Assembly: GCF_018448905.1 (NCBI RefSeq)
Contig: NZ_RCWA01000028.1
Span: forward strand, 1 to 64,000
Direction of reading: 5' to 3'
DNA: 64,000 nt
Source of the DNA: Photorhabdus heterorhabditis
GTDB taxonomy: Bacteria; Pseudomonadota; Gammaproteobacteria; Enterobacterales; Enterobacteriaceae
Shown here: in pieces, positions 34,758 to 54,471 of the stretch
How positions within the stretch are numbered: the stretch's first letter is position 1
Layout: each line of letters opens with the position of its first letter
Made by a program: the position numbers and the translations under genes
The notes under the pieces: model-generated
The model's input: the letters and a program-made list of their open reading frames with translations, nothing else
What the model was told of the DNA's origin: nothing
The model's database searches: none

Positions 34758-35210
34758 TCACTCAACTAATAATTCGCCCCACAGCTTAATCCAGGGCTGA
34801 GCAAAAATTTCCGGTTCTGCTTCTTCTACTGCATCCACCAGAAGAATTTCACCGATTCTTATCGCGCCTTGCTCTTGTAGCAACTCATCAAAAATGCGAC
34901 CGCCACCACAAAAATTCTCGTAACTACCATCACCCAAGGCGATAACGCCATAACGTAATTCCGGCTGATAACCTAATTCATCTCGCAAAGCGCAATAAAG
35001 TGGCTGAATATTATCGGGCAAATCCCCTTGCCCAGTCGTTGAAGTGATAACTAAAATCACATGATTAAGATAGGACTGCCACTGCTCCAGTTCCCCTTCT
35101 TCAAATACTTCTATCTCATGACCTTGTTGTTCAAGGATTTGCTGTGCTTCTTCTGCAACTGCCAGGGCATTACCGTAAACAGTACCAACAAAAATACCAA
35201 TTTTCGCCAT
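34758..35210 (-). CDS. yqcA: Flavodoxin YqcA
   Basis: Short-chain flavodoxin of the MioC/YqcA group. The FMN phosphate-binding loop GTVYGNAL is near residue 9-16. [12 protein letters not shown] and [14 protein letters not shown] contact the isoalloxazine. ATG 35210 gives 150 residues (149 in E. coli). The in-frame start at 35273 would add 21 unconserved residues. In E. coli yqcA adjoins truC. Here about 5 kb of foreign DNA separates them. Confidence 0.92.
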
Positions 35211-35601
35211 AACTTCTGATCTCTTTTTAAAGGAACTATTAGTTATCCTCGCTGGCAACAACAGAAAACTCAACCCTTGCCAAATCAGGGATAATTACCT
35301 TACCAACTAAGCCGTCGCACTAAATATTGCCATTATTAAGCTTAATCTGTCATGTAAACAATATTTCATTAGCACTAATGACTAACGATATATCTGCCAG
35401 ACTAATTACAGGCAGTTGTACTGATCAATAGCGATGTTTATTCTACATAAAACGGTAACAGGTAATCATCAAACGCATTGTTATCTGTGACAACTATTAT
35501 GGAACAGCCAAAATGCAACAACATTAAACTCAGTTATTTATCCAATAATAATTTAATGTTAACATTACTTCTTGTAACAACTTTGTTCGATAACATTTAA
35601 C
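35211..35601. other. Gene-free stretch upstream of yqcA
   Basis: AT-rich intergenic DNA marking the left side of the yqcA/truC insertion. It must contain the yqcA promoter (minus strand), but I cannot assign -35/-10 boxes with confidence. No RNA gene, repeat or further coding signal was recognised. Confidence 0.5.
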
Positions 35602-36133
35602 ATGGAAGAATGCCATATACTCTATTTCAATAAAAATAATAGCCGAATGAGATTAATAGAACAATGTAGGCAAGCAATAAATATCATGAGATCAATCACC
35701 ATGTTTAATAATAAAGCCATCGTGCTTAGTGTGTTATTAAGTGCAGCAAATATTACCGGCTCATCGGGTCTGATGACTTGGGTAGATGCTGTACTTAAAG
35801 ATGGAGGTATGATTTTCAATGCCTACGTTCCTATTTTTTCCTATTTATTGGGATTATCTCTGGGATGTATGACCATATCCTTTTTTATTCAAAAATGAAT
35901 ATTGCATTTTTTAAAAAAATATTTTTTGATTATTGTTATTATTAGCAACTATAAACTGCATTCTCTTTTCAAGAGAAACAACTCTTATTCCAGTTTGGCT
36001 GGATTCTCTGCATAGAATATTATGGGCATATATAAATCTTTATATGTTTACAGAAAATGTTTATTTTATGACAAGCAGTAAAAATACTGACATCATACCC
36101 TATATTAGCCTGATAATACCCTTTTATTTCTAA
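35602..36133 (+). pseudogene. Small membrane protein gene, probably frameshifted
   Basis: Two consecutive open frames encode hydrophobic segments. The first (35602-35898, possibly starting at 35686 or 35701) has about two membrane helices (KAIVLSVLLSAANITG and PIFSYLLGLSLGCMTISFFI). The second (from about 35933, a different frame, to 36133) has two or three more. An ATG overlapping the first stop (35895) opens a third frame of 16 codons that ends just where the second begins. Runs of A and T between 35905 and 35930 are natural slippage sites. I read this as one gene, or a pair, broken by an indel. No family is recognised. Its end overlaps the MFS gene on the other strand. Confidence 0.4.
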
Positions 36134-37313
36134 AGTAAGTACTTAGTAAAGTAAAGAAAGTAAAAAGTATCAGTAATATCCAACTTAAGTTATAACCACC
36201 TGTAATATCTCTTAATATCCCTATTAATGGCGCAATAACAATCACAGCAACTTGATTAGCAGTCATAGCCAAACCTAAAGCAAATCCTATTCTATCTTTA
36301 GGGGCTGTATCTGCTATATAAGCTACCCATGGACCATACCAACCTACTCCAAAGAAACCAAGCAAGACCATAAATGGGAATAAAAAATAATAACTATCCG
36401 TTTTTAAAAAAAACAAAATGGTGATTCCAATTAAAGAACAAAATAAGCAACATAATACTTGAAAATATCTATTTGTCTTTGTTCTGTCACTCCAAGCAGC
36501 TAAGACTATTCTCCCTACAACCCCAGAAGCAAGAGCTGAAAATAATAAAGTCGCACCTATAGATGGAGAAATTTTTAGCTCCTCATAAAAATAAGAAATT
36601 AGATAAATGACTACACTATATTGGATGGATGTCAAGCAAGCACCAGACAACATAATATTAAACATAGCAGGTTCTTTAACCATTAATATTTTATTTCTGA
36701 TAGTCGATATAATATTAATGTGCTGTATTTTCTTTGTTTTTGGATCTTTGTCTTTATAAAATATAAAAAAGAGCATAGCCCCAAAAATAGCAATACATCC
36801 ACTAGCAAAGAAAGCAAAATGCCAATTAAAACGTATTGCCAAAAATGGCAGAATTAAACTTGCTAAGGCTCCTCCTAGGGGCAATCCTGCTTGTCTAATC
36901 CCCATAGCAAAACCTAACTGATTTTTTGGAAACCAATTAGAAACGGATTTGGCCCCACCTGGTTGCGCAGAACTATATCCAATCCCAAGAATAAATAAGA
37001 GAATAAGAATCGCATAATAGTTATCAAAAAACAGAGTAAAACATAGAGTGATCCCAACCAAGAAAACACCTATACTTACCACGTATTTTTCATTAAACCT
37101 ATCAAGTAATTCTCCAGCTACTAGTAAGCCAACTAATGGTGCAAGTTGAGCAGATGATACTAATAACCCAATTTGGAATGCAGATAACGACATCTGTTGT
37201 TGCAATAGTAGAGCGATAGAACCTATCCCTTGAACAAAAAAACATGCACATGCCTGCGTTATCGTAGCTATAAATAAAACCATCCATTTATAACTTTCAA
37301 TATTTTGATTCAT
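36105..37313 (-). CDS. MFS transporter of the accessory island
   Basis: Twelve-helix major facilitator, 402 residues from ATG 37313 (a GTG lies one codon earlier). The MFS loop motif is present as GELLDRFNEKYVV after helix 2, and helix 4-5 carries GIRQAGLPLGGALASLILP, as in the NarK/CynX-like and oxalate/formate-like branches. It is the last gene of a leftward operon (hydroxylase, racemase, MFS), 26 bp after the racemase. The context suggests export of the pathway product or uptake of its substrate. Specificity cannot be read from sequence. Codon use is AT-rich, unlike flanking core genes. Confidence 0.85.
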   Translation of the reverse strand: MNQNIESYKWMVLFIATITQACACFFVQGIGSIALLLQQQMSLSAFQIGLLVSSAQLAPLVGLLVAGELLDRFNEKYVVSIGVFLVGITLCFTLFFDNYYAILILLFILGIGYSSAQPGGAKSVSNWFPKNQLGFAMGIRQAGLPLGGALASLILPFLAIRFNWHFAFFASGCIAIFGAMLFFIFYKDKDPKTKKIQHINIISTIRNKILMVKEPAMFNIMLSGACLTSIQYSVVIYLISYFYEELKISPSIGATLLFSALASGVVGRIVLAAWSDRTKTNRYFQVLCCLFCSLIGITILFFLKTDSYYFLFPFMVLLGFFGVGWYGPWVAYIADTAPKDRIGFALGLAMTANQVAVIVIAPLIGILRDITGGYNLSWILLILFTFFTLLSTYFRNKRVLSG

Positions 37314-37339
37314 CACGAATTAACTATCCCATAAGATCT

Positions 37340-38200
37340 TTATAAAAAACCACTATATTCGTATGGAGAAGTAAAGTTATCAACCTTACTTTGTTCTGTT
37401 AAGAATAAAAATTTCTGAATTCCCTTTTGAGAGTTAATTTGGTTAATCGCCTGATAAAGAGAGTTGACAGCATCATAGGCAGGGTCCACCCACTCCTTAA
37501 CATTTTTAAAAATATACTTTAATTCATCTTTAATATTAGGAAAGTGAGTGCACCCTAAAATCACTACATCTACATTATCAACTTCTTCTTTCGTCATTGA
37601 TCTTAATATTAAACTTTCTATATCATTGGTTTCTAATGATATTCCTCTTGATTTCATCTCTGAGAAATTAACCAGCTCTGTTAAACCTAATTTTTTAAAG
37701 ATGAACTTATCATCAATTAACTTTGCACATATATTATTAACATATTCACTGTCAATTGTATTAGGTGTAGCGATCAGAAGAACATTTTTTTTTGAAGATA
37801 TCTGAAAAGCTTCTAAAATAGGAGGAAGAACTTTAATACAAGGCATTTTTAGTTTTTCTGTAAAACTATTACTCAATAAAGTTGATGCTGTATTACAAGC
37901 AATGATTAAACCAATTGGTTCAAATATTTGTACTGCTTGCTCTAATAGATCCTCTATTCTTTCTAGTAGTAAATTTCTATCCTTATTTCCATAAGGATAG
38001 AACTTATTATCAGCAATATAAACAACGTCAGCACCTAAAAAAAAATTCTCTATATATTTAGATACTGACAAACCACCAACTCCCGAATCAAAAATCAATA
38101 TTCTAGGAGAATCTGTGTTTATTTTTTCTATAGAATCTCCATTAGCGTTGTAAAATTCTATATTTTTTTTTCCTAAAATAATCGTATTTTCAACTAACAT
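37340..38200 (-). CDS. Glutamate-racemase-family enzyme (MurI paralogue)
   Basis: Cofactor-independent Asp/Glu racemase superfamily, 286 residues. The MurI hallmarks are intact: FDSGVGGLSV (37-46), ACNTAS with catalytic Cys102, and GCTHFP with catalytic Cys217. A MurI-type enzyme interconverts L- and D-glutamate. The N terminus has about 32 extra residues before the core. The location in an AT-rich island beside a hydroxylase makes a housekeeping role unlikely. It may racemise a pathway intermediate, supply D-glutamate, or back up MurI. AGAGG sits six bases before the ATG, and the hydroxylase gene ends 9 bp upstream. Confidence 0.85.
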   Translation of the reverse strand: MLVENTIILGKKNIEFYNANGDSIEKINTDSPRILIFDSGVGGLSVSKYIENFFLGADVVYIADNKFYPYGNKDRNLLLERIEDLLEQAVQIFEPIGLIIACNTASTLLSNSFTEKLKMPCIKVLPPILEAFQISSKKNVLLIATPNTIDSEYVNNICAKLIDDKFIFKKLGLTELVNFSEMKSRGISLETNDIESLILRSMTKEEVDNVDVVILGCTHFPNIKDELKYIFKNVKEWVDPAYDAVNSLYQAINQINSQKGIQKFLFLTEQSKVDNFTSPYEYSGFL

Positions 38201-38209
38201 AGGAACCTC

Positions 38210-39181
38210 TTACGCAATGATGGCTCGACTTCGAACAGATCCTCGCATTCCTCGAGATTTCTTTAAGTCAGTTGTAAAGACAACTCTTGCTAACCAACGT
38301 GCTTTTTCTCCGAAGAAAGGTTCATATGCATCCCTCGCGTGTACACATCTAAAGTTATCAATAAAGATACAATCTGAAGTATTTAAAACAATTGATTTCT
38401 TATTTTTATTAAAAAAATCAATTACTTTATTGACTGCATTTATTTCATCTAACGAATTGTTATCTAGGTTCAAAGCAGCAGCATTAATTCTTACATAAGG
38501 CTCTTCTTTTGCACCAAATAATATTGCCTGACCTTCTTCATCAACAATATTTGAAGTTGAATGAATTGGATTATGAGAAATATAAAACCTGTTCTGAAAA
38601 AGCAGAGCCTTTTCCCTGTCAGTAAGTTCAATACCATCAATACAAGAAATTGTTGTTGGTGCTTTTTCTTCATTTCGCATACAAACTAGTCCTAAAAACT
38701 CTGCTCTTGCTGGATGAAAGGCATCTTCTACATGAAACCCAAAATCTCTATTTGAACCACTGCTTGAATTAGGGACATTTTGTAATTCTTCGAAAGGAAT
38801 AATATTATTGTATATACTACCATTTCGTTGGGAGGTAAATCCTATACCTTCTCCTAATAAAGATCCGTATAAACCTAATAATATTTTCGCATCATTAATT
38901 TTATATCCATCTTCTAATTCTATTAATTTACTTGGAGTTGGTTGAACTCCATTAAGCAAAACAGGGTTATCTTTAACACAAATAGCAGCATATTTTTCAT
39001 GCCGTTTAAAATGATAAAACTCTTCTCTAATATTACGAGGCAATTCCTGTGCGAAAATTGGGGATTTTTCTAGAAAGTCATATTGATTATCTAATTTCTC
39101 ATCAAAAACAATATGATCTATTAAATCTTTAATCACTTTATTTTCACTTTGCCCAGGATTAATTTCCTTAATATGTGTCAT
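38210..39181 (-). CDS. Fe(II)/2-oxoglutarate amino-acid hydroxylase (VioC/AsnO-like)
   Basis: Clavaminate-synthase-like dioxygenase, 323 residues. The facial triad is visible as His150-X-Glu152 in FGFHVEDAFHPARAEFLG and the distal His281 in NFRCVHARDAYEP. Arg295, fourteen residues on, fits the 2-oxoglutarate-binding Arg. The HxE form and the EDAFHPxR/GLxCxRN and ISHNPIHS segments are typical of free L-amino-acid beta- or gamma-hydroxylases (VioC, AsnO, lysine hydroxylases) rather than TauD. The substrate is not predictable from motifs alone. It is the first gene of the three-gene operon with the racemase and MFS genes. Confidence 0.85.
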   Translation of the reverse strand: MTHIKEINPGQSENKVIKDLIDHIVFDEKLDNQYDFLEKSPIFAQELPRNIREEFYHFKRHEKYAAICVKDNPVLLNGVQPTPSKLIELEDGYKINDAKILLGLYGSLLGEGIGFTSQRNGSIYNNIIPFEELQNVPNSSSGSNRDFGFHVEDAFHPARAEFLGLVCMRNEEKAPTTISCIDGIELTDREKALLFQNRFYISHNPIHSTSNIVDEEGQAILFGAKEEPYVRINAAALNLDNNSLDEINAVNKVIDFFNKNKKSIVLNTSDCIFIDNFRCVHARDAYEPFFGEKARWLARVVFTTDLKKSRGMRGSVRSRAIIA

Positions 39182-39480
39182 CTTCCTACTCTAATATAGT
39201 TAATATAACAAAGTCCAGTTTGGTTCGGGTAATTTATATTTTTCGTTTTAAAACGAAACCAAATTTACATTTATTTACATTTTAATTTTCTCGATTATTT
39301 AATTTTATCTATAATTTTCAAAAAGATATATTTACCTTATGGAGAAATACACTTTTCTCAAACAGAATAAAAATATTTATAAAAATAATATATTAAATCC
39401 ATTTTTTAAAAAAATTACGCATTTTTTATTTAAATATTAACGTAATATTACACAAGGAAACTTATAATCTAAACAAGATA
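39182..39480. other. AT-rich region upstream of the hydroxylase operon
   Basis: Extremely A+T-rich DNA with long A and T runs, expected to hold the operon promoter. Several TATAAT-like hexamers occur by composition alone, so I do not name one. The composition resembles H-NS-silenced horizontally acquired DNA. No RNA or coding feature recognised. Confidence 0.5.
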
Positions 39481-39646
39481 AAAGCATGAATGAATGTTTA
39501 TTACTCAGCCAGCTATCAGTGCCTTATCCATATTAACGCTATTCATGCTGGCCTCTTTCGTTTACGGCGAATACTGGCTTTTTTTGTTGTTTCCGCACGA
39601 AGTATATTCAAGGTCAGATCATATACAAGCCAGAATTTCAGTAGTA

Positions 39647-39790
39647 TCACCACGATGGTAGCAAGCATCTTCGTTCATAAACACATCTAGAACCTAGTGT
39701 ACGCATTGACTTCCTTGTATCTTGGTGTAAACGCTGAGCTTGTGCTTCCATCTGTTCCAGTCGGAATTTACAGGCTTTCAGAATGAGCAT
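39647..39790 (-). pseudogene. IS200/IS605 tnpB (OrfB) N-terminal remnant
   Basis: Reading left from ATG 39790 gives MLILKACKFRLEQMEAQAQRL, the characteristic TnpB opening (short beta strand LKAxKFRL followed by xxEQxQxL). The frame then loses similarity and stops after 47 codons. The zinc-finger and RuvC parts are absent. Just upstream on the same strand (about 39792-39890) a second short frame ends ...IENNHLSCNIAERR, weakly like an IS66-type transposase tail. These are decayed insertion-sequence fragments, not functional genes. Confidence 0.5.
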
Positions 39791-40049
39791 ATTAATTCGG
39801 TGTGTCCTGTCGTCTTTCCGCAATATTACAGCTCAGGTGGTTATTCTCAATGCAGAAATACCCCTTCAACCGTTCCCGATATGCCGCCTTCCATCAGTAT
39901 GAAAGGCAGACAACCAGTCCGTCCCTAGGTCTCGTTTTCATTTTGCAGGTTTGTGTAACAATGCTCGGCGTTGTGAAACACTATTACGGAGCTAACGCCT
40001 CGTCGAAATCCCCCTCCCGCCTTGTGTCAGCAGGAGTACCCTTTCGAAG

Positions 40050-44944: not shown

Positions 44945-45700
44945 ATGATACACCTTCTAATTGTTGATGCTCTTAACCTTATCCGCCGCATTCACGCTGT
45001 GCAGGGTAGCCCATGCATTGCTGCCTGTGAACATGCACTGAAGCAGTTGATCCAACATACCAATCCTACCCATGCTGTCGCAGTATTCGATGAGGAAGAT
45101 CGCAGTAACAGTTGGCGTCACCAAATATTACCGGCCTACAAAGCTGGCCGTTCGCCAATGCCTGACAATCTGAAACAAGAAATGCCGCAGATCAGAATAT
45201 CATTTGAACAACAAGGCATAGCCTGCTGGCATGCCCAAGGACATGAAGCAGATGATCTAGCCGCGACGCTGGCAGTAAAAGTCGCTTCTGCCGGTTACGT
45301 TACGATTGTTTCTACTGATAAAGGTTATTGCCAATTACTTTCACCCAATATCCGTATCCGCGACTACTTCCAGAAACGCTGGCTGGATATGCCATTTGTT
45401 CAACAAGAATTTGGCGTTTCTCCAGAACAATTACCTGATTACTGGGGACTGGCGGGGATCAGTAGCAGTAAAATACCCGGAATTCAGGGGATTGGCCCTA
45501 AAACCGCCACGGCTTTACTGCAACAGGTTGGTACACTGGATAACCTTTTCCAGAATCTCGATCAACAACCAGATAAATGGCGCAACAAGCTGGAATCAAA
45601 TAGAGAAATCGCTTTTATCAGCCGGGAAGTTGCGTCGTTACGTACCGATTTAGCGTTAAATGGCAATCTGCAACAACTCCGGCTGACAACAGCAAACTAA
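44945..45700 (+). CDS. xni: Flap endonuclease Xni (ExoIX)
   Basis: Pol I 5'-nuclease paralogue that cuts flap structures. [16 protein letters not shown] at the N terminus, [35 protein letters not shown] and STDKGYCQL give the acidic metal sites. The H3TH region is [21 protein letters not shown]. The length is 251 residues, as in E. coli. Its stop overlaps by 4 bases the convergent stop of prtD. The sdaCB genes found between ppnN and xni in E. coli are absent. Confidence 0.94.
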
Positions 45701-47073
45701 CGGAAATACCCTGCTACCTTATCCAAATGCTCACCTTTTAGCTCTCCGGCCTCATTTAGTAGGCCGACCCAAGCTTTAATATAATTATATTTTGCCTGAG
45801 AAAGATCACGCCGGGCAGTATATAACTGCTGCTCAGCATTCAGAATATCCACATTAACCCGCTGCCCAAGAACAACACTCTTACTGGTCGCATCTACCTG
45901 CAAGCTGGCTGATTCAACAGCCATTTCATAAGCATTAATCCGCTTTTCACTATTCAGGTACTGATTATAATTTCGGCGTAATGCATTAAGAACTTCTCCT
46001 GCCTGAGCATCAAGATCATATCTAGTTCTTCCATATTGCGCCGCCGCCTGACGTACAGAAGCCGATGTACCACCCCCATTATAGATATTCATGCTCATCC
46101 GCAAGCCAATGGTATCGGTTCGATACTTCTGATCTACCGTATTATCGCTGCTAGATTCGCTTTCAGAATGGGAAGCATAGAGTTCCAACTTAGGTAAATA
46201 ACCTGCCCGGTTACGTTGCACCTCATGGTACGCCGCTTTCACTTCCTGACGGGAAGCGGCCAGAACCGGATTGTTAGCTAATGCCAGTTTTTCCCATTCT
46301 TCATAATGGCTTGGCGACAACTTCAATATCTTAAACTGCGTCTTATCTGATAGCCGCTGCACCGGTAAATCAATGGGAAGAGGAACACCAACAATCAGTT
46401 GTAAACCCCGGATTGCTGCATCCAGATCATCTTTAGCTGCTATTTCATCGGCAATAGCCTGGCTGTAACGAGATTGTGTTTCCACTACATCAGTACGTGT
46501 CCCTTCACCAGAAGCAAATAACTTCCTGTTCAGTTCCAATTGTTTTTCATACGCCATTTTCTGGCGTATCACCAAATCAATCTGATCCTGAGCATAAGCC
46601 ACATCCACGTAAGCATTCACTACCCGGACAGCTAATTGCTGAAAATCTGCCCGAAAACGTTCATTACTCATTAACGTATGAGCCTGACTGGCTTTATAAC
46701 GCGCCCATATCTCAAAATCTATCAATGGCTGAGTCAGCACAACTGCCGCGTTATAACTGCTATATTGGCGATCCCGACTTTCCGTTGTCTTATTTCCCCG
46801 ACGATCATACGTAGGGTATTCCATATGTTGCCAGTTCTTCGGTGAATGCTGATAAGACATCATCACTTTAGGTAACAATTCTGCCCTGCCAATCTTTTCA
46901 TACTCTTCTCCTCCTTCTCTTTCTTTTACTGCCGAGAGAAAAGTAGGATCATTTTCTAATGCCAGCGCATAAGCCTCTGTCAGGCTCAGTGCCCATGCAG
47001 GAAAAGAGAACAAACTGACACTGAAAAGAATTAACAAACTCACTGATGATAAAGAAGCACGATGCAGTTTCAT
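45697..47073 (-). CDS. prtD: TolC-family outer-membrane channel of the PrtA exporter
   Basis: Outer-membrane component of the type I secretion system. A signal peptide ends in FSFPAWA, then [20 protein letters not shown] begins the first TolC repeat. The protein is rich in helical coiled-coil stretches and ends ...AGYFR. From ATG 47073 (AGGAG upstream) it has 458 residues. The third exporter gene, 2 bp after prtC. In Dickeya nomenclature the equivalent is PrtF, so the letter depends on the naming scheme. Confidence 0.9.
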
Positions 47074-47075
47074 AA

Positions 47076-48404
47076 TCACTCCTCTATCAACGATGTCGAA
47101 GCCCGATCCCACAATGGCTTAAACAGGTAACTCAACAAGGAACGTGAACCGGTTTTGACAAATACTTCAACTGGCATCCCCGGCCTGATATCCAGCCCTT
47201 TCAGTTTTTCCATCTCTTCAGGGGATACGACTGCTCTCATCTGATAATAAGGTTGGCTATTCACAGGATCTACCAATCTGTCTGCGGAAACCATGACCAC
47301 TTTTCCCGCAATTTTTGGCGTCCGGTTCTGATTAAAAGCGGTGAACATCAGATCTACATCCAGCCCTTTACTAATCTTATCTGCCAGATTAACCGCAACA
47401 CGGGTTTCCACTTCAAGCGCCATTTGGTTCGGTAGAATTTCCATCAGTTTTTCACCGGGAGCAACAACACCACCCTGTGTAAAAATATTTAACCCGACAA
47501 CCGTGCCATCAACCGGTGCCACAATTGAAGTATGCGTAAGTTCAAACTGGGCTGTATCCAACTTATTTCTGTATTCACTGGCAGCAACCTGCACCTCTGC
47601 CAATTGCGTACGCACTTCCCGTTGATAGTCTGCGTTGCGCTGAATAATACGCTGCTGGGTTTCCTGTAGCTGTTTTTCAAGCTGGCCGGTACGCCCTTCC
47701 ATTTCCGCTATGCTACTGTTGAGTTCAGCCTGTTCACGCAGAAGTTCCAAATAACGATTACGCGGGAAATATCCCTCATCCACTAAAGATTTAAGATTAA
47801 CTATCTGTTCTTTAAGTGCTACCTGTTGCACTCGTTTACTGACAAGAGAAGCTTTCAGCCCTTTAATCTGAAAGTTTGTACCAGCAACAGACTGCTCAAG
47901 CCCTTCCAGATCGCTTTGCAGCATTTCCCGGCGTGATGCGAACAGTTGTTTTTGCAATGCAATAATCTCTTTCACCCGAGGTTCAGATTGTAATTGCTGG
48001 AATATTTCGGGAAAAACCAGCATGTCATCACCATGCTGTTCAGCCAATAAACGGGTTTCCGTTGCTAATGTGGTATACAGTTGATCCTGAAGCGCATCTA
48101 CCTGTGCTTTTGCCTGCACCTGACTGAGCTGAACGAGAGTTTGGCCCGCTTTTATTGTTTCTCCTTCAACAACCATAATCTGGCTAATAATACCGCTTGC
48201 CGGGGCTTGAACCGTTTTGCGGTTGCCATCCACAACCACCACACCAGAAGACGCGACCCCTTTATCCAACGGCGCAAATGCTGCCCAAATGAGAAACCCC
48301 AAGATCCCCACACCAATCACCAACCATCCTAGTCGTAAAAAATGCCCTTCTTCTAGTGGCAATAATCCTTTTCCATCCACTACCGGCGTATTCTGATCAG
48401 ACAT
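47076..48404 (-). CDS. prtC: HlyD-family membrane fusion protein of the PrtA exporter
   Basis: Periplasmic adaptor of the type I system. One N-terminal membrane helix (LGWLVIGVGILGFLIWAAFAP) is followed by a lipoyl/biotinyl-like half-motif (VVVDGNRKTVQAPASGIISQIMVVEGETIKAGQTL), long coiled coils, and the second half-motif with a beta-barrel (HTSIVAPVDGTVVGL). The ATG at 48404 (MSDQNTP) has GGGAG five bases upstream. A GTG two codons earlier is less likely. The length is 442 residues. The Dickeya equivalent is PrtE. Confidence 0.9.
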   Translation of the reverse strand: MSDQNTPVVDGKGLLPLEEGHFLRLGWLVIGVGILGFLIWAAFAPLDKGVASSGVVVVDGNRKTVQAPASGIISQIMVVEGETIKAGQTLVQLSQVQAKAQVDALQDQLYTTLATETRLLAEQHGDDMLVFPEIFQQLQSEPRVKEIIALQKQLFASRREMLQSDLEGLEQSVAGTNFQIKGLKASLVSKRVQQVALKEQIVNLKSLVDEGYFPRNRYLELLREQAELNSSIAEMEGRTGQLEKQLQETQQRIIQRNADYQREVRTQLAEVQVAASEYRNKLDTAQFELTHTSIVAPVDGTVVGLNIFTQGGVVAPGEKLMEILPNQMALEVETRVAVNLADKISKGLDVDLMFTAFNQNRTPKIAGKVVMVSADRLVDPVNSQPYYQMRAVVSPEEMEKLKGLDIRPGMPVEVFVKTGSRSLLSYLFKPLWDRASTSLIEE

Positions 48405-48470
48405 ATCCACTCCCGGACAGAAATCTCCGTCTCAGCTATTTGATATTATTATAATTACATGCTTATTTGC

Positions 48471-50201
48471 TTATGATGCCTGTGCAACTGCCTTGGCCGC
48501 AGAAGGTTCCTGACTTTTATTTTGTTGCGATAAAGCAGTCATTACCTGCTGAGATGAACCAAACATCTTCATTTTTCCCTGAACCAGTAGCAATATTTTG
48601 TTCGTCTGTGACAACAATGATGTGCGGTGAGTAATCACAATCACAGTTTTTCCTTGCGCTTTCAGCTGAGCAATAGCTTGATTCAGCGCTCTTTCACCCG
48701 CTTCATCCAGGCTGGAATTAGGTTCATCCAGAACCACAAGTGATGGCTCATCATACAACGCACGAGCAAGACCAATTCGCTGTTTCTGACCGCCAGATAG
48801 CCCAATACCGCCGGCACCAATAACAGTGTCATAACCCTTATCAAGCGCTAATATCAGTTCATGAACCCCAGCTTTCTTTGCCGCCTGAACAACTTTTTCT
48901 GATTCCACTTCATTGAAACGAGCAATGTTCTCAGCGATAGTGCCGCCAAATAGCTCAATATCTTGCGGTAAATATCCTATTGAAGAACCCAATTCATCTT
49001 TGTTCCACCGATAAATATCTGCATTATCAAGACGGACTACACCTTCCTGTGCCGGCCATATCCCGACCAGTAACCGGGCGAGGGTCGATTTCCCTGAAGC
49101 ACTGGGGCCAATTAATCCCATCACATCACCCGCATCCAGCGCAAAACTAACATCCTGCAACACAACCTTACTGTTTCTTCCTGGAGGTGCGGCTGAAACT
49201 TTTTCTACCACCAAATTGCCTTTTGGCACCGGTAATGACATGCCCGATTTCCGTTCTGGTTGCTGCTCCAACAAATCGGTTAATCGTTGCCATGACAAAC
49301 GCGCTGCACTCCAACCTTTCCAGGCTTGAATCAGCTGTTCAATCGGCGAAAGTGCCCGCCCCATCAGAATTGAAGCAGCAATCATCATTCCTGGCGTAAT
49401 ATGCCCGTCAATTGCTAACCAGCCACCTAATCCAAGGATCAGCGACTGTAACGCCAAACGCACTGTTTTAGTGACTGAATTAATTACTGAAGCCCGTTCA
49501 CTGGCAATACGCTGGAAATTCAGAAAACGTTCATGTAATCCAAACCATCTCCGGCGTAACACCGGCAACATCCCCAACGCCTCTATTACTTCAGCGTTAC
49601 GCAAGTTAGTGCTAGCGAGGCTGGCTGAACGCAGAGCAAGTTTATTGGCTTCTGATAAAGGCTGGCTTGATACCCACTGATTCAACACAGCAAGGGCAAT
49701 CAATACCAACGCCCCCACTAATGACAACAAACCAAGCCAGGGGTTAAAAAGAAAAATAACCAGCAAGTAGATTGGGAACCAGGGGGCATCAAAGAAAGCA
49801 AATAAGGCATTACCCGTCAGAAACTGGCGAATATTTGCCAAGTCATTGAGCATCTGCCCCGCATCTGTTGTACCATTTTTCAGATTTGATTCGTAAGATG
49901 CGGTATAAACCCGATTATTCAGCTTCATATCAAGCTGGCTACCAATACGAATAACAATCATGCTGCGGATATATTCCAGCATCCCCATCATGGCAAACAT
50001 GCCAAGAGTAATCAGGGTCAACATCAGCAAAGTGATTTCATTGCCCGACGGCAACACTCTGTCATAAACCTGCAACATATAAACAGATGGAACCAACATG
50101 AGCAGGTTAATAAAGGCAGTGAACAACCCGATAGTCCAAAACACCCGACTACGGGCACGAATGACATCAGCAATCTCGTCCTTTGGGAGTAGTAATTTCA
50201 C
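48471..50201 (-). CDS. prtB: Type I secretion ABC transporter for PrtA
   Basis: Half-size exporter of the PrtD/HasD type, 576 residues. The six-helix transmembrane domain lies in residues 20-300. The nucleotide-binding domain has Walker A GPSASGKST (365-373), signature LSGGQKQR near 470 and Walker B LVVLDEPNSSLDEA. There is no N-terminal C39-like domain, as expected for serralysin exporters. It follows inh by 84 bp and precedes prtC. The Dickeya equivalent is PrtD. Confidence 0.92.
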   Translation of the reverse strand: MKLLLPKDEIADVIRARSRVFWTIGLFTAFINLLMLVPSVYMLQVYDRVLPSGNEITLLMLTLITLGMFAMMGMLEYIRSMIVIRIGSQLDMKLNNRVYTASYESNLKNGTTDAGQMLNDLANIRQFLTGNALFAFFDAPWFPIYLLVIFLFNPWLGLLSLVGALVLIALAVLNQWVSSQPLSEANKLALRSASLASTNLRNAEVIEALGMLPVLRRRWFGLHERFLNFQRIASERASVINSVTKTVRLALQSLILGLGGWLAIDGHITPGMMIAASILMGRALSPIEQLIQAWKGWSAARLSWQRLTDLLEQQPERKSGMSLPVPKGNLVVEKVSAAPPGRNSKVVLQDVSFALDAGDVMGLIGPSASGKSTLARLLVGIWPAQEGVVRLDNADIYRWNKDELGSSIGYLPQDIELFGGTIAENIARFNEVESEKVVQAAKKAGVHELILALDKGYDTVIGAGGIGLSGGQKQRIGLARALYDEPSLVVLDEPNSSLDEAGERALNQAIAQLKAQGKTVIVITHRTSLLSQTNKILLLVQGKMKMFGSSQQVMTALSQQNKSQEPSAAKAVAQAS

Positions 50202-50285
50202 AGCATTTCCTTAATAACTATCTGATATATCTTATTTTTATAAATATGTGACTATCTGATGTTAACGTTCCTTGCCCTATTCGCT

Positions 50286-50672
50286 TTACTTACCCGGTCT
50301 CATTATCAATTCCCGGCCATCAGCAAACCGGGCAAACCAGCCATCTGACTCATGAGCAAAAAAAGCCAAACCACTCCCCTGATTATCTGTAATTGTGATG
50401 CCATCAGGCGTAGGCCGCCAACCGGCAGGTACTTCACCAAACATATCCGCCAAACACGTGTTATCACCATTAAGTGACCAAATTGACCCCTCCGGTAATG
50501 GTTGATCAGTCAATGACACATCACATTGTTGACGTTTATCTGACAGTTGCCATACGCCTTTCAATTCACTAGCGTGTGGCAGATCAAGACTACTTGCCAT
50601 ACTTCCTCCAATAATGCTGAATGTAAGAACAACAAAGAATGCAAATTTTAGATACCAAGTCGCAAAAACCAT
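50286..50672 (-). CDS. inh: Serralysin inhibitor Inh
   Basis: Periplasmic protein inhibitor of the I38 (Inh/AprI) family, which blocks any protease misdirected inside the cell by inserting its N terminus into the active site. A signal peptide (about 1-26, ending SMA) is followed by SSLDLPHASELKGVWQLSD. Two cysteines (QQCDVS and NTCLAD) form the expected single disulfide. The length is 128 residues. It lies between prtA and the exporter genes, behind a hairpin. Confidence 0.88.
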   Translation of the reverse strand: MVFATWYLKFAFFVVLTFSIIGGSMASSLDLPHASELKGVWQLSDKRQQCDVSLTDQPLPEGSIWSLNGDNTCLADMFGEVPAGWRPTPDGITITDNQGSGLAFFAHESDGWFARFADGRELIMRPGK

Positions 50673-50689
50673 GCCGTCTCCAAACGAAT

Positions 50690-50714
50690 AACCGCATCCA
50701 AATTAGATGCGGTT
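50690..50714 (-). terminator. Intercistronic hairpin between prtA and inh
   Basis: Perfect 9-bp arms AACCGCATC (50690-50698) and GATGCGGTT (50706-50714) sit 11 bp after the prtA stop. ATTCGTTT follows on the minus strand, a weak U-tract. It probably lets a fraction of transcripts continue, so that prtA is made in excess over inhibitor and exporter, or it protects the prtA 3' end. Confidence 0.65.
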
Positions 50715-50725
50715 GTATTGTTGTG

Positions 50726-53280
<2,555 letters not shown>

Positions 53281-53281
53281 A

Positions 53282-53314
53282 AAATAAAAACGCCTCAAAA
53301 TATCACTGAGGCGC
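53282..53314 (-). terminator. Intrinsic terminator after rlmM
   Basis: The minus strand reads CGCCTCA (53307-53313 complement) and TGAGGCG (53291-53297 complement) around a 9-nt loop, then TTTTTATTTT. It lies 57 bp past the rlmM stop. Confidence 0.88.
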
Positions 53315-53370
53315 TTTATGAAGTCTTATTTTAGGAATTTATTCCAGAAATAACGATGAACAACAGTTAA

Positions 53371-54471
53371 TCAGTCATTATTCCGACTGTTTGCATAAGC
53401 AGACCAAATACGACGAACATGAACCGTTATTTCTTCCCTGTCATGATAAAGGTGCTTTGCCTGAATTTGTGCATTGATACCATTCTCTTTTAATTGCAGA
53501 TTCATTTTCTGCAAATTATGCGCAACTTCTTCATAACGCTTTTTCATGGGCAGTTTGAGATTAAAAATAGCCTCCCGACACCAACCATTAACCAACCAAT
53601 CAGCCATGAGTTGCGTCACTTTTGCCGGCTTTTCCACCATATCACACACTAGCCAATAAATGTTTTTTACCGAAGGTTGAAACTTAAAACCATCAATTTT
53701 GTGATGCCGAACCTGCCCGGTATCCATCAGGCTTTGCGACATAGGACCATTATCCACAGCATGAACCATCATACTGCGTTTCACCAATTGGTAGGTCCAA
53801 CCACCAGGACATGCACCTAAATCAACAGCATACAGACCACTAGCCAGCCGCTCTTCCCATTCATCATAAGGAATAAAAACATGAAAAGCTTCTTCCAACT
53901 TCAGTGTTGAACGACTTGGTGCATCTGAAGGGAACTTCAATCGGGGAATGCCCATATAAAATGGCGAGTTGTTATTACTGTAAGAATAACCAACATAACA
54001 GCAACCCGGTGCAATAAAGAAAACATGTATGACGGGACGGCTCGTGTTTTCCTTAATCTGCAAAATTTTTTCCTGACGCATAGCATTACGCAACGGCACA
54101 GTAAATTTCCGGCAGAATTTCAACAACTCTTTACTTTCATTAGTATCAGGCACTTCAACCCGTAGTTCGCCCGCACGTTCGATGACACCATGTAACATAC
54201 CAACAATCGGACTTATCCGATCTTCAGGAGATAAATCTCGTAATAATTCACCCACGACTAGCATTTGGCGGGCAAAAATCAATTCCCGAAAGGGTATCTC
54301 ACGAATAAGACGATCTGCATCTTCATGCTGATAACACTCAAACAGAACATAACCGCTGTTGTCTTTTACCCGGGCAAAACCGTAAATCTCTTTTTGACCC
54401 GCTTTATCGGTGATTTCTGCCGCACACTCTTTTTCAAAACCAGGGCGACAATATAAGGCAATTTTATTCAT
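53371..54471 (-). CDS. rlmM: 23S rRNA (cytidine(2498)-2'-O)-methyltransferase
   Basis: Adds the 2'-O-methyl group at C2498 of 23S rRNA. An N-terminal THUMP-like domain ([20 protein letters not shown]) precedes a Rossmann domain with the SAM motif [18 protein letters not shown] and the K-D-K-E catalytic residues ([38 protein letters not shown]). The length is 366 residues, identical to E. coli. It overlaps ygdD by 8 bases. Confidence 0.96.

Follow-up and report, generated by a model that had tools for sequence, protein, structure and literature searches.

Why should a bacterium keep a second glutamate racemase-type gene between the genes for an amino-acid hydroxylase and a transporter? The question is raised by a minus-strand operon at positions 36105..39181 of a 64,000-nucleotide stretch of Photorhabdus heterorhabditis DNA (contig NZ_RCWA01000028.1; the whole stretch is called the window below), which consists of open reading frames (ORFs) for an Fe(II)/2-oxoglutarate-dependent hydroxylase, a MurI-type racemase and a transporter of the major facilitator superfamily (MFS). 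It is almost certain that the three genes are a genuine unit, inherited together and belonging to a defined clade of hydroxylases, and this module is a horizontally moved cassette common to Photorhabdus and some Pseudomonas. As to function, a mobile, self-contained cassette is tentatively proposed, possible rather than probable in its full form, in which an acidic amino acid is hydroxylated, the product is exported as an antimetabolite and the spare racemase guards the producer's D-glutamate. No paper on such a hydroxylase-racemase-MFS cassette was found in the open-licence PubMed Central (PMC) literature.

The hydroxylase gene (38210..39181, minus strand, 323 aa) is followed after 9 bp by the racemase gene (37340..38200, minus strand, 286 aa) and then by the MFS gene (36105..37316, minus strand, 403 aa). 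An earlier note, made from the letters alone, had placed three leftward genes here with gaps of 9 and 26 bp. The genes and the first gap stand, but the second gap is 26 bp only from an ATG at 37313 and becomes 23 bp from a GTG at 37316, the likelier start because ATA replaces the window's ATG in both other Photorhabdus copies. The three proteins score above the Pfam cut-offs for TauD (29 bits, cut-off 27), Asp_Glu_race (39.8, cut-off 31) and MFS_1 (227.9, cut-off 33.4), the last in agreement with the transporter family first named. The local AT-richness that had been noticed is also borne out: GC content is 0.307-0.341 across the five 1-kb bins that cover 35001-40000, while the remaining 59 bins of the window span 0.248-0.473 and all reach at least 0.37 except two (52001-54000). 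The upstream region of the operon (39182..39330, minus strand) holds a promoter-like match, TTGAAA-16-AATAAT at 39321-39294. It is at chance level, the scan having found 19 sites against 24.8 expected, with a best match no better than chance.

The flavodoxin and truC neighbours are present at this site in all 13 Photorhabdus genomes, and the trio lies there in three: that of the window, P. noenieputensis and P. luminescens DSM 3368. Only the first ~107 codons of the hydroxylase remain at the site in P. bodei, where the racemase and MFS genes are both gone. The other nine genomes have none of the three genes at the site, nor does the clade hydroxylase occur anywhere else in them (best matches ≤28% identity). 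For the hydroxylase gene, the ratio of nonsynonymous to synonymous substitution rates (dN/dS) among the three Photorhabdus copies is 0.17-0.18; the racemase gene gives 0.15-0.22 and the MFS gene 0.11-0.14. The operon is more than a chance arrangement, because these ratios are low (0.11-0.22 overall), showing that the genes are under selection, and the trio recurs in seven Pseudomonas genomes. Beside the cassette, at 35602-36046, an older membrane-protein gene has left its traces. One is a 98-aa ORF with matches in 12 of the 13 Photorhabdus genomes; the other is the start, 47 residues long, of a 329-aa protein. That protein is intact in P. bodei, P. noenieputensis and P. luminescens, and the rest of it is gone from the window.

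Relatives outside the genus were sought in 84,980 species genomes with two short peptide patterns, a scan that may miss some. It yielded 53 loci, 14 within the hydroxylase clade and 39 outside. The clade loci comprise three in Photorhabdus (including the P. bodei fragment), one in Xenorhabdus szentirmaii, seven in Pseudomonas, one in a metagenome-assembled genome of Telmatospirillum and two in Streptomyces. Hydroxylase identity to the window copy is 80% in X. szentirmaii, 55-64% in Pseudomonas, 58% in Telmatospirillum and 51-55% in Streptomyces, and is at most 33% beyond the clade. A search of whole genomes covered 295 from the family, 369 from the class and 398 from the phylum and found nothing above 30% apart from the three Photorhabdus copies; in 398 Pseudomonas genomes it found the hydroxylase in six, all among the known carriers. 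In all seven Pseudomonas genomes the order is likewise hydroxylase, racemase, MFS. The trio lies there at several sites, two pairs of loci sharing a neighbour (L045/L047 and L046/L051), and its GC content (0.43-0.51) contrasts with the 0.53-0.67 of most of its neighbours. The trio is thus rare, patchy and mobile. The co-occurrence elsewhere that the earlier note had set as a test is therefore real, the trio being found in three Photorhabdus and seven Pseudomonas genomes, and within the data searched no characterised pathway has this gene set, as that note had also supposed. Carriage by viruses or plasmids was considered and rejected: no tblastn relative was found among 60 pattern-matched viral stretches, there was no match to plasmid DNA, and the plasmid protein matches all fell below 60% identity, at 24-30% among the matches listed.

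What does the hydroxylase act on? By sequence it belongs to the clavaminate-synthase-like family. Its iron triad, described beforehand as an intact HxE...H, is H150, E152 and H281 and is kept in 12/12 aligned clade members and in 14/14 other proteins. All 12 clade rows also have Arg at positions P18 (R295) and P19 (R299), which bind 2-oxoglutarate and the substrate carboxylate, respectively (Bastard et al. 2018, PMC6224419, here and below from the part of the paper available). The nearest NCBIfam models are GntD (242.6 bits, cut-off 345) and VioC (181.8, cut-off 418.6), neither of which is reached, and the closest solved relatives are arginine hydroxylases (E ~1e-33, ~30% identity). The enzyme shares its iron triad and both arginines with VioC, OrfP and CmnC (PDB 2wbo, 4m23 and 7vgl; chain 4m23 is identified as OrfP, and 6daw as NapI, in PMC6224419), and likewise has Gln (Gln118) at the amino-group position. 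With such relatives a free amino acid is very probably the substrate, as the earlier note had expected. In a tree of 26 hydroxylase rows, from which the broken or truncated L050, L051 and L053 were left out, the 12 clade rows form a single branch with 100/100 support. An AlphaFold model has a mean predicted local distance difference test score (pLDDT) of 87.5 and a predicted template modelling score of 0.90, the lid (residues 201-210) being weakest with a pLDDT of 60. VioC differs in its long lid, absent here. AsnO (PDB 2og5) has a similarly short lid but lies on a separate tree branch; its lid carries P-P-S, its P3 residue is Lys and position 241 is Asp. The original label of a VioC/AsnO-type hydroxylase thus holds for the family, while the protein itself falls in a separate clade that is neither VioC nor AsnO.

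More distant relatives of the hydroxylase also occur in these bacteria. The window's own genome has one of 28% identity at C1:30729-31607 (L002), within an ORF of 569-588 aa whose N-terminal part is of no recognised kind. Other Photorhabdus genomes have relatives of 26-28% identity (L006, with L007, L008, L014 and L016 similar); L006 adjoins an ORF of 247 aa and an ABC-type ATPase gene and may belong to another natural-product cluster. Two further genomes of the same family (L017, L018) have a 320-aa relative (28-30%) between aminotransferase-like and AMP-ligase-like genes.

The substrate pocket narrows the choice of amino acid. Positions follow the scheme of PMC6224419, anchored by VioC Q137 (P2) and S224 (P14) and by the PPSD of AsnO, and 12 clade rows were compared with 14 others (five solved chains, taken as segments, and a hand-picked nine of the 39 loci outside the clade). 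In the window hydroxylase the pocket consists of Gln118 (P2), Arg119 (P3), His203 (P11), Asn204-Pro205-Ile206 (P12-P14), Asn233 (P15) and Ala235 (P16), and P3, P11, P12, P14, P15 and P16 are identical in all 12 clade rows; at P13 X. szentirmaii has Ala. The downstream parts of two broken clade members carry the same pocket residues. Arg at P3 is found in 1/14 of the others and His at P11 in none, while P12 is Asn in 12/12 clade rows and Asp in 13/14 others, and P15 is Asn in 12/12 and Asp in 14/14. VioC and AsnO are numbered here by D268, D270 and H155, of which VioC D268 is the acidic side-chain residue at P15. That acidic residue of the VioC-type arginine hydroxylases, and Asp241 of AsnO, which aligns with P15, are both replaced by N233 in the window hydroxylase. 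Compared with VioC, OrfP and CmnC, which have Gln at P3, Asp at P15 and Asp, Tyr or Ala at P16, the window enzyme has Arg, Asn233 and Ala235; Asp249 of CmnC, which binds the guanidino group (PMC9513391, available in part), aligns with P16, Ala in the clade.

These residues bear directly on the earlier suggestion of an acidic or basic product. Asp at P12 and P15 has been tied to positively charged substrates (PMC6224419), and a basic, Arg- or Lys-like substrate is rejected with Asn at both positions in all 12 clade rows. The acidic half of the suggestion is favoured, although an acidic substrate has only about an even chance. By published description the clade pocket, with its Arg at P3, His at P11 and N-P-I-N at P12-P15, matches the uncharacterised group G4 of Bastard et al. 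(model protein B0KR96), the comparison resting on that description in the available text, which reports neither a genomic neighbourhood nor an activity for G4. There the G4 sub-pocket is read from homology models as a hydrophobic-substrate type, an assumption from which the view favoured here departs. If a hydrophobic amino acid were the substrate, the racemase would act on that amino acid or have an unrelated housekeeping use, and the Pro and Ile lining the sub-pocket would fit. This alternative is nevertheless judged unlikely: Asn occupies two of the four sub-pocket positions, engineered AsnO D241N, which has P-P-S-N and thus Asn at the position of Asn233, accepts L-aspartate and converts it to L-threo-hydroxyaspartate (PMC9968057, available in part), the partner racemase exceeds the glutamate racemase cut-off in eight of 12 copies, and repeated recruitment of MurI would be left unexplained. 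Arg at P3 is described as a sign of C4 hydroxylation (PMC6224419).

The racemase is the second clue. It exceeds the NCBIfam cut-off for glutamate racemase (TIGR00067; 163.9 against 146.65 bits), its closest solved relatives are MurI enzymes, and it has the DSG and PYG motifs together with both MurI catalytic cysteines (CNTAS, GCTH), in line with the initial description; eight of the 12 unsplit cluster copies pass the same cut-off. It differs from ordinary MurI in being a second copy, placed in an operon with a hydroxylase: the housekeeping MurI of this genome lies on contig C20, and the cluster copy is 32-34% identical to housekeeping MurI. All 17 genomes searched have a MurI-type match. The cassette racemase is an addition to the housekeeping gene and not its replacement, because more than one such match was found in all 15 genomes that have at least part of the clade hydroxylase; the further matches in P. 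bodei and X. szentirmaii are weak. With 26 racemase queries, a racemase match was found close to 13 of the 14 clade loci (one a remnant) and to none of the 39 outside loci, some of which extend less than 6 kb per side. The four Streptomyces rows, cluster and housekeeping alike, group at 100/100 in the racemase tree, and a single clade for all 12 cluster racemases is rejected by the approximately unbiased (AU) test (p-AU 0.00012). The racemase was thus recruited at least twice to the hydroxylase clade, the two Streptomyces cluster copies descending from Streptomyces MurI. The cluster racemases of the Gram-negative loci fall into one group (100/100), whose placement next to enterobacterial MurI comes with long-branch warnings. 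L052 (split) and L042 (ruined) were left out of the racemase trees; the first tree also lacked the Telmatospirillum cluster row, which the AU-test tree included without the long-branched Telmatospirillum housekeeping row.

The arrangement has the hallmark of a spare target enzyme, a second MurI-type copy beside biosynthetic genes with the housekeeping copy elsewhere. On the reading preferred here, the hydroxylase would use Fe(II), O2 and 2-oxoglutarate to act on a free acidic amino acid, L-glutamate in the first place and aspartate in the second, probably at C4. Glutamate is preferred because the partner racemase points to it and the pocket permits an acid, and C4 is proposed because of the Arg at P3. 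The MFS protein would export the product as an antimetabolite against neighbours, the likeliest target being the supply of D-glutamate for peptidoglycan (MurI or a neighbouring step), and the dedicated racemase would serve as a reserve glutamate racemase, tolerant of the product, through which the producer's D-glutamate supply is kept up. (2R,4S)-4-substituted D-glutamates inhibit MurI (PMC5127577, available in part); since a product of that type would put the producer's own MurI at risk, a second MurI encoded next to the hydroxylase would be a plain answer. In its sharpest form, a one-step weapon against glutamate racemase (4-hydroxyglutamate or a near relative), with the exporter and the tolerant spare racemase as immunity genes and invented at least twice with a local MurI, the idea is rather unlikely.

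Patterns of gene decay bear on whether the racemase protects or builds. In X. szentirmaii the hydroxylase and MFS genes are open, with dN/dS of 0.07-0.11 against Photorhabdus, around a ruined racemase. The remnant scores 44.3 bits in tblastn against at most 19.2 in 100 shuffles, although at the DNA level BLAST finds it weakly (best E 2e-4, one of two such matches being on the wrong strand). In three of the seven Pseudomonas genomes a stop or frameshift interrupts the hydroxylase, with the racemase and MFS genes open. A protective role fits these losses, because the racemase is ruined where X. szentirmaii keeps the rest, and the hydroxylase is broken in three Pseudomonas genomes that keep racemase and transporter. 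The earlier note had let the racemase shape a D-configured product, a role that stays as a rival. The racemase would then make a D-configured substrate or invert the hydroxylated product, the pathway ending in a D-hydroxy amino acid in free form, or in a dipeptide in the case of Streptomyces. Such a role would suit the middle position of the racemase in all ten trio loci (the window, L040, L041, L043, L045, L046, L047, L050, L051 and L052) and its repeated (at least twofold) recruitment by a single hydroxylase clade. It would also suit the Streptomyces loci, both of which have an MFS_3-type transporter and a BacD-like ATP-grasp ligase (below the BacD model cut-off, 70 against 850 bits), and one of the two an L-amino acid ligase-like protein; in this they combine hydroxylase and racemase with the type of ligase known from L-amino acid ligase/BacD dipeptide pathways. 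No ligase is present in the Photorhabdus or Pseudomonas cassettes, so that the statement that none is present is right for the window and does not extend to these relatives. Against a biosynthetic racemase speak its loss from X. szentirmaii, the fact that housekeeping MurI already makes D-glutamate, and the faster divergence of the Gram-negative racemase copies (29-38% identity to the window copy) than of the hydroxylase (55-64%) and MFS protein (49-53%), and it is accordingly thought fairly unlikely. If the substrate is acidic, the chance that the racemase guards rather than builds is slightly better than even.

Two further alternatives concern the transporter and the racemase. The MFS protein reaches no named NCBIfam family; its closest models are organic-anion transporters of the galactonate and phosphoglycerate types, far under their cut-offs (113.6 against 395 bits for the D-galactonate type, TIGR00893). 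Transporters of these types are mostly importers or exchangers, and the cassette might accordingly import an amino acid, perhaps in D-form, for the two enzymes to convert for growth. This is improbable, since the cassette has no catabolic enzyme (aminotransferase, dehydrogenase or aldolase) and the Streptomyces relatives pair an MFS_3-type transporter with ligases, as in biosynthesis. Some MurI proteins bind and protect DNA gyrase, and the racemase might guard gyrase rather than the D-glutamate supply, a thought encouraged by the N-terminal extension of ~30-40 residues ahead of the DSG motif in the cluster racemases; nothing here ties a small product to gyrase, and this is very improbable.

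Several observations weigh against an exported acidic antimetabolite with a protective racemase, beyond the import habit of the nearest transporters and the hydrophobic substrate assumed in print for G4. A homologous MFS gene is absent from the Telmatospirillum locus. Four of the 12 cluster racemases fall below the glutamate racemase cut-off, as do the Streptomyces housekeeping copies, and long branches trouble the racemase tree. In Pseudomonas L052 the racemase is split while hydroxylase and MFS genes are open, which protection of the producer does not predict, and X. szentirmaii may on that same reading be a producer lacking its guard, a case that can be read either way. The broken genes are as they stand in the assemblies.

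Elsewhere in the window, a type I secretion operon at 45697-52294 joins a gene for a serralysin-type protease to genes for an ABC transporter, an HlyD-type protein and an outer-membrane efflux protein. Upstream of the protease gene lies the most AT-rich kilobase of the window (52001-53000, GC 0.248), whose last 700 bases hold no ORF of 100 aa.

Efforts against glutamate racemase as an antibacterial target go back a long way and have used synthetic 4-substituted D-glutamates. If the proposal is true, bacteria make a 4-substituted glutamate-type compound with a single oxygenase and have spread the ability in the form of a cassette of three genes, whose spare racemase would reveal how such a compound can be tolerated. 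Even if the racemase proves to be biosynthetic, the cassette offers a role, and a substrate that can be put to the test, for an entire uncharacterised group of oxygenases, and an enzyme that hydroxylates acidic free amino acids would be a useful biocatalyst.

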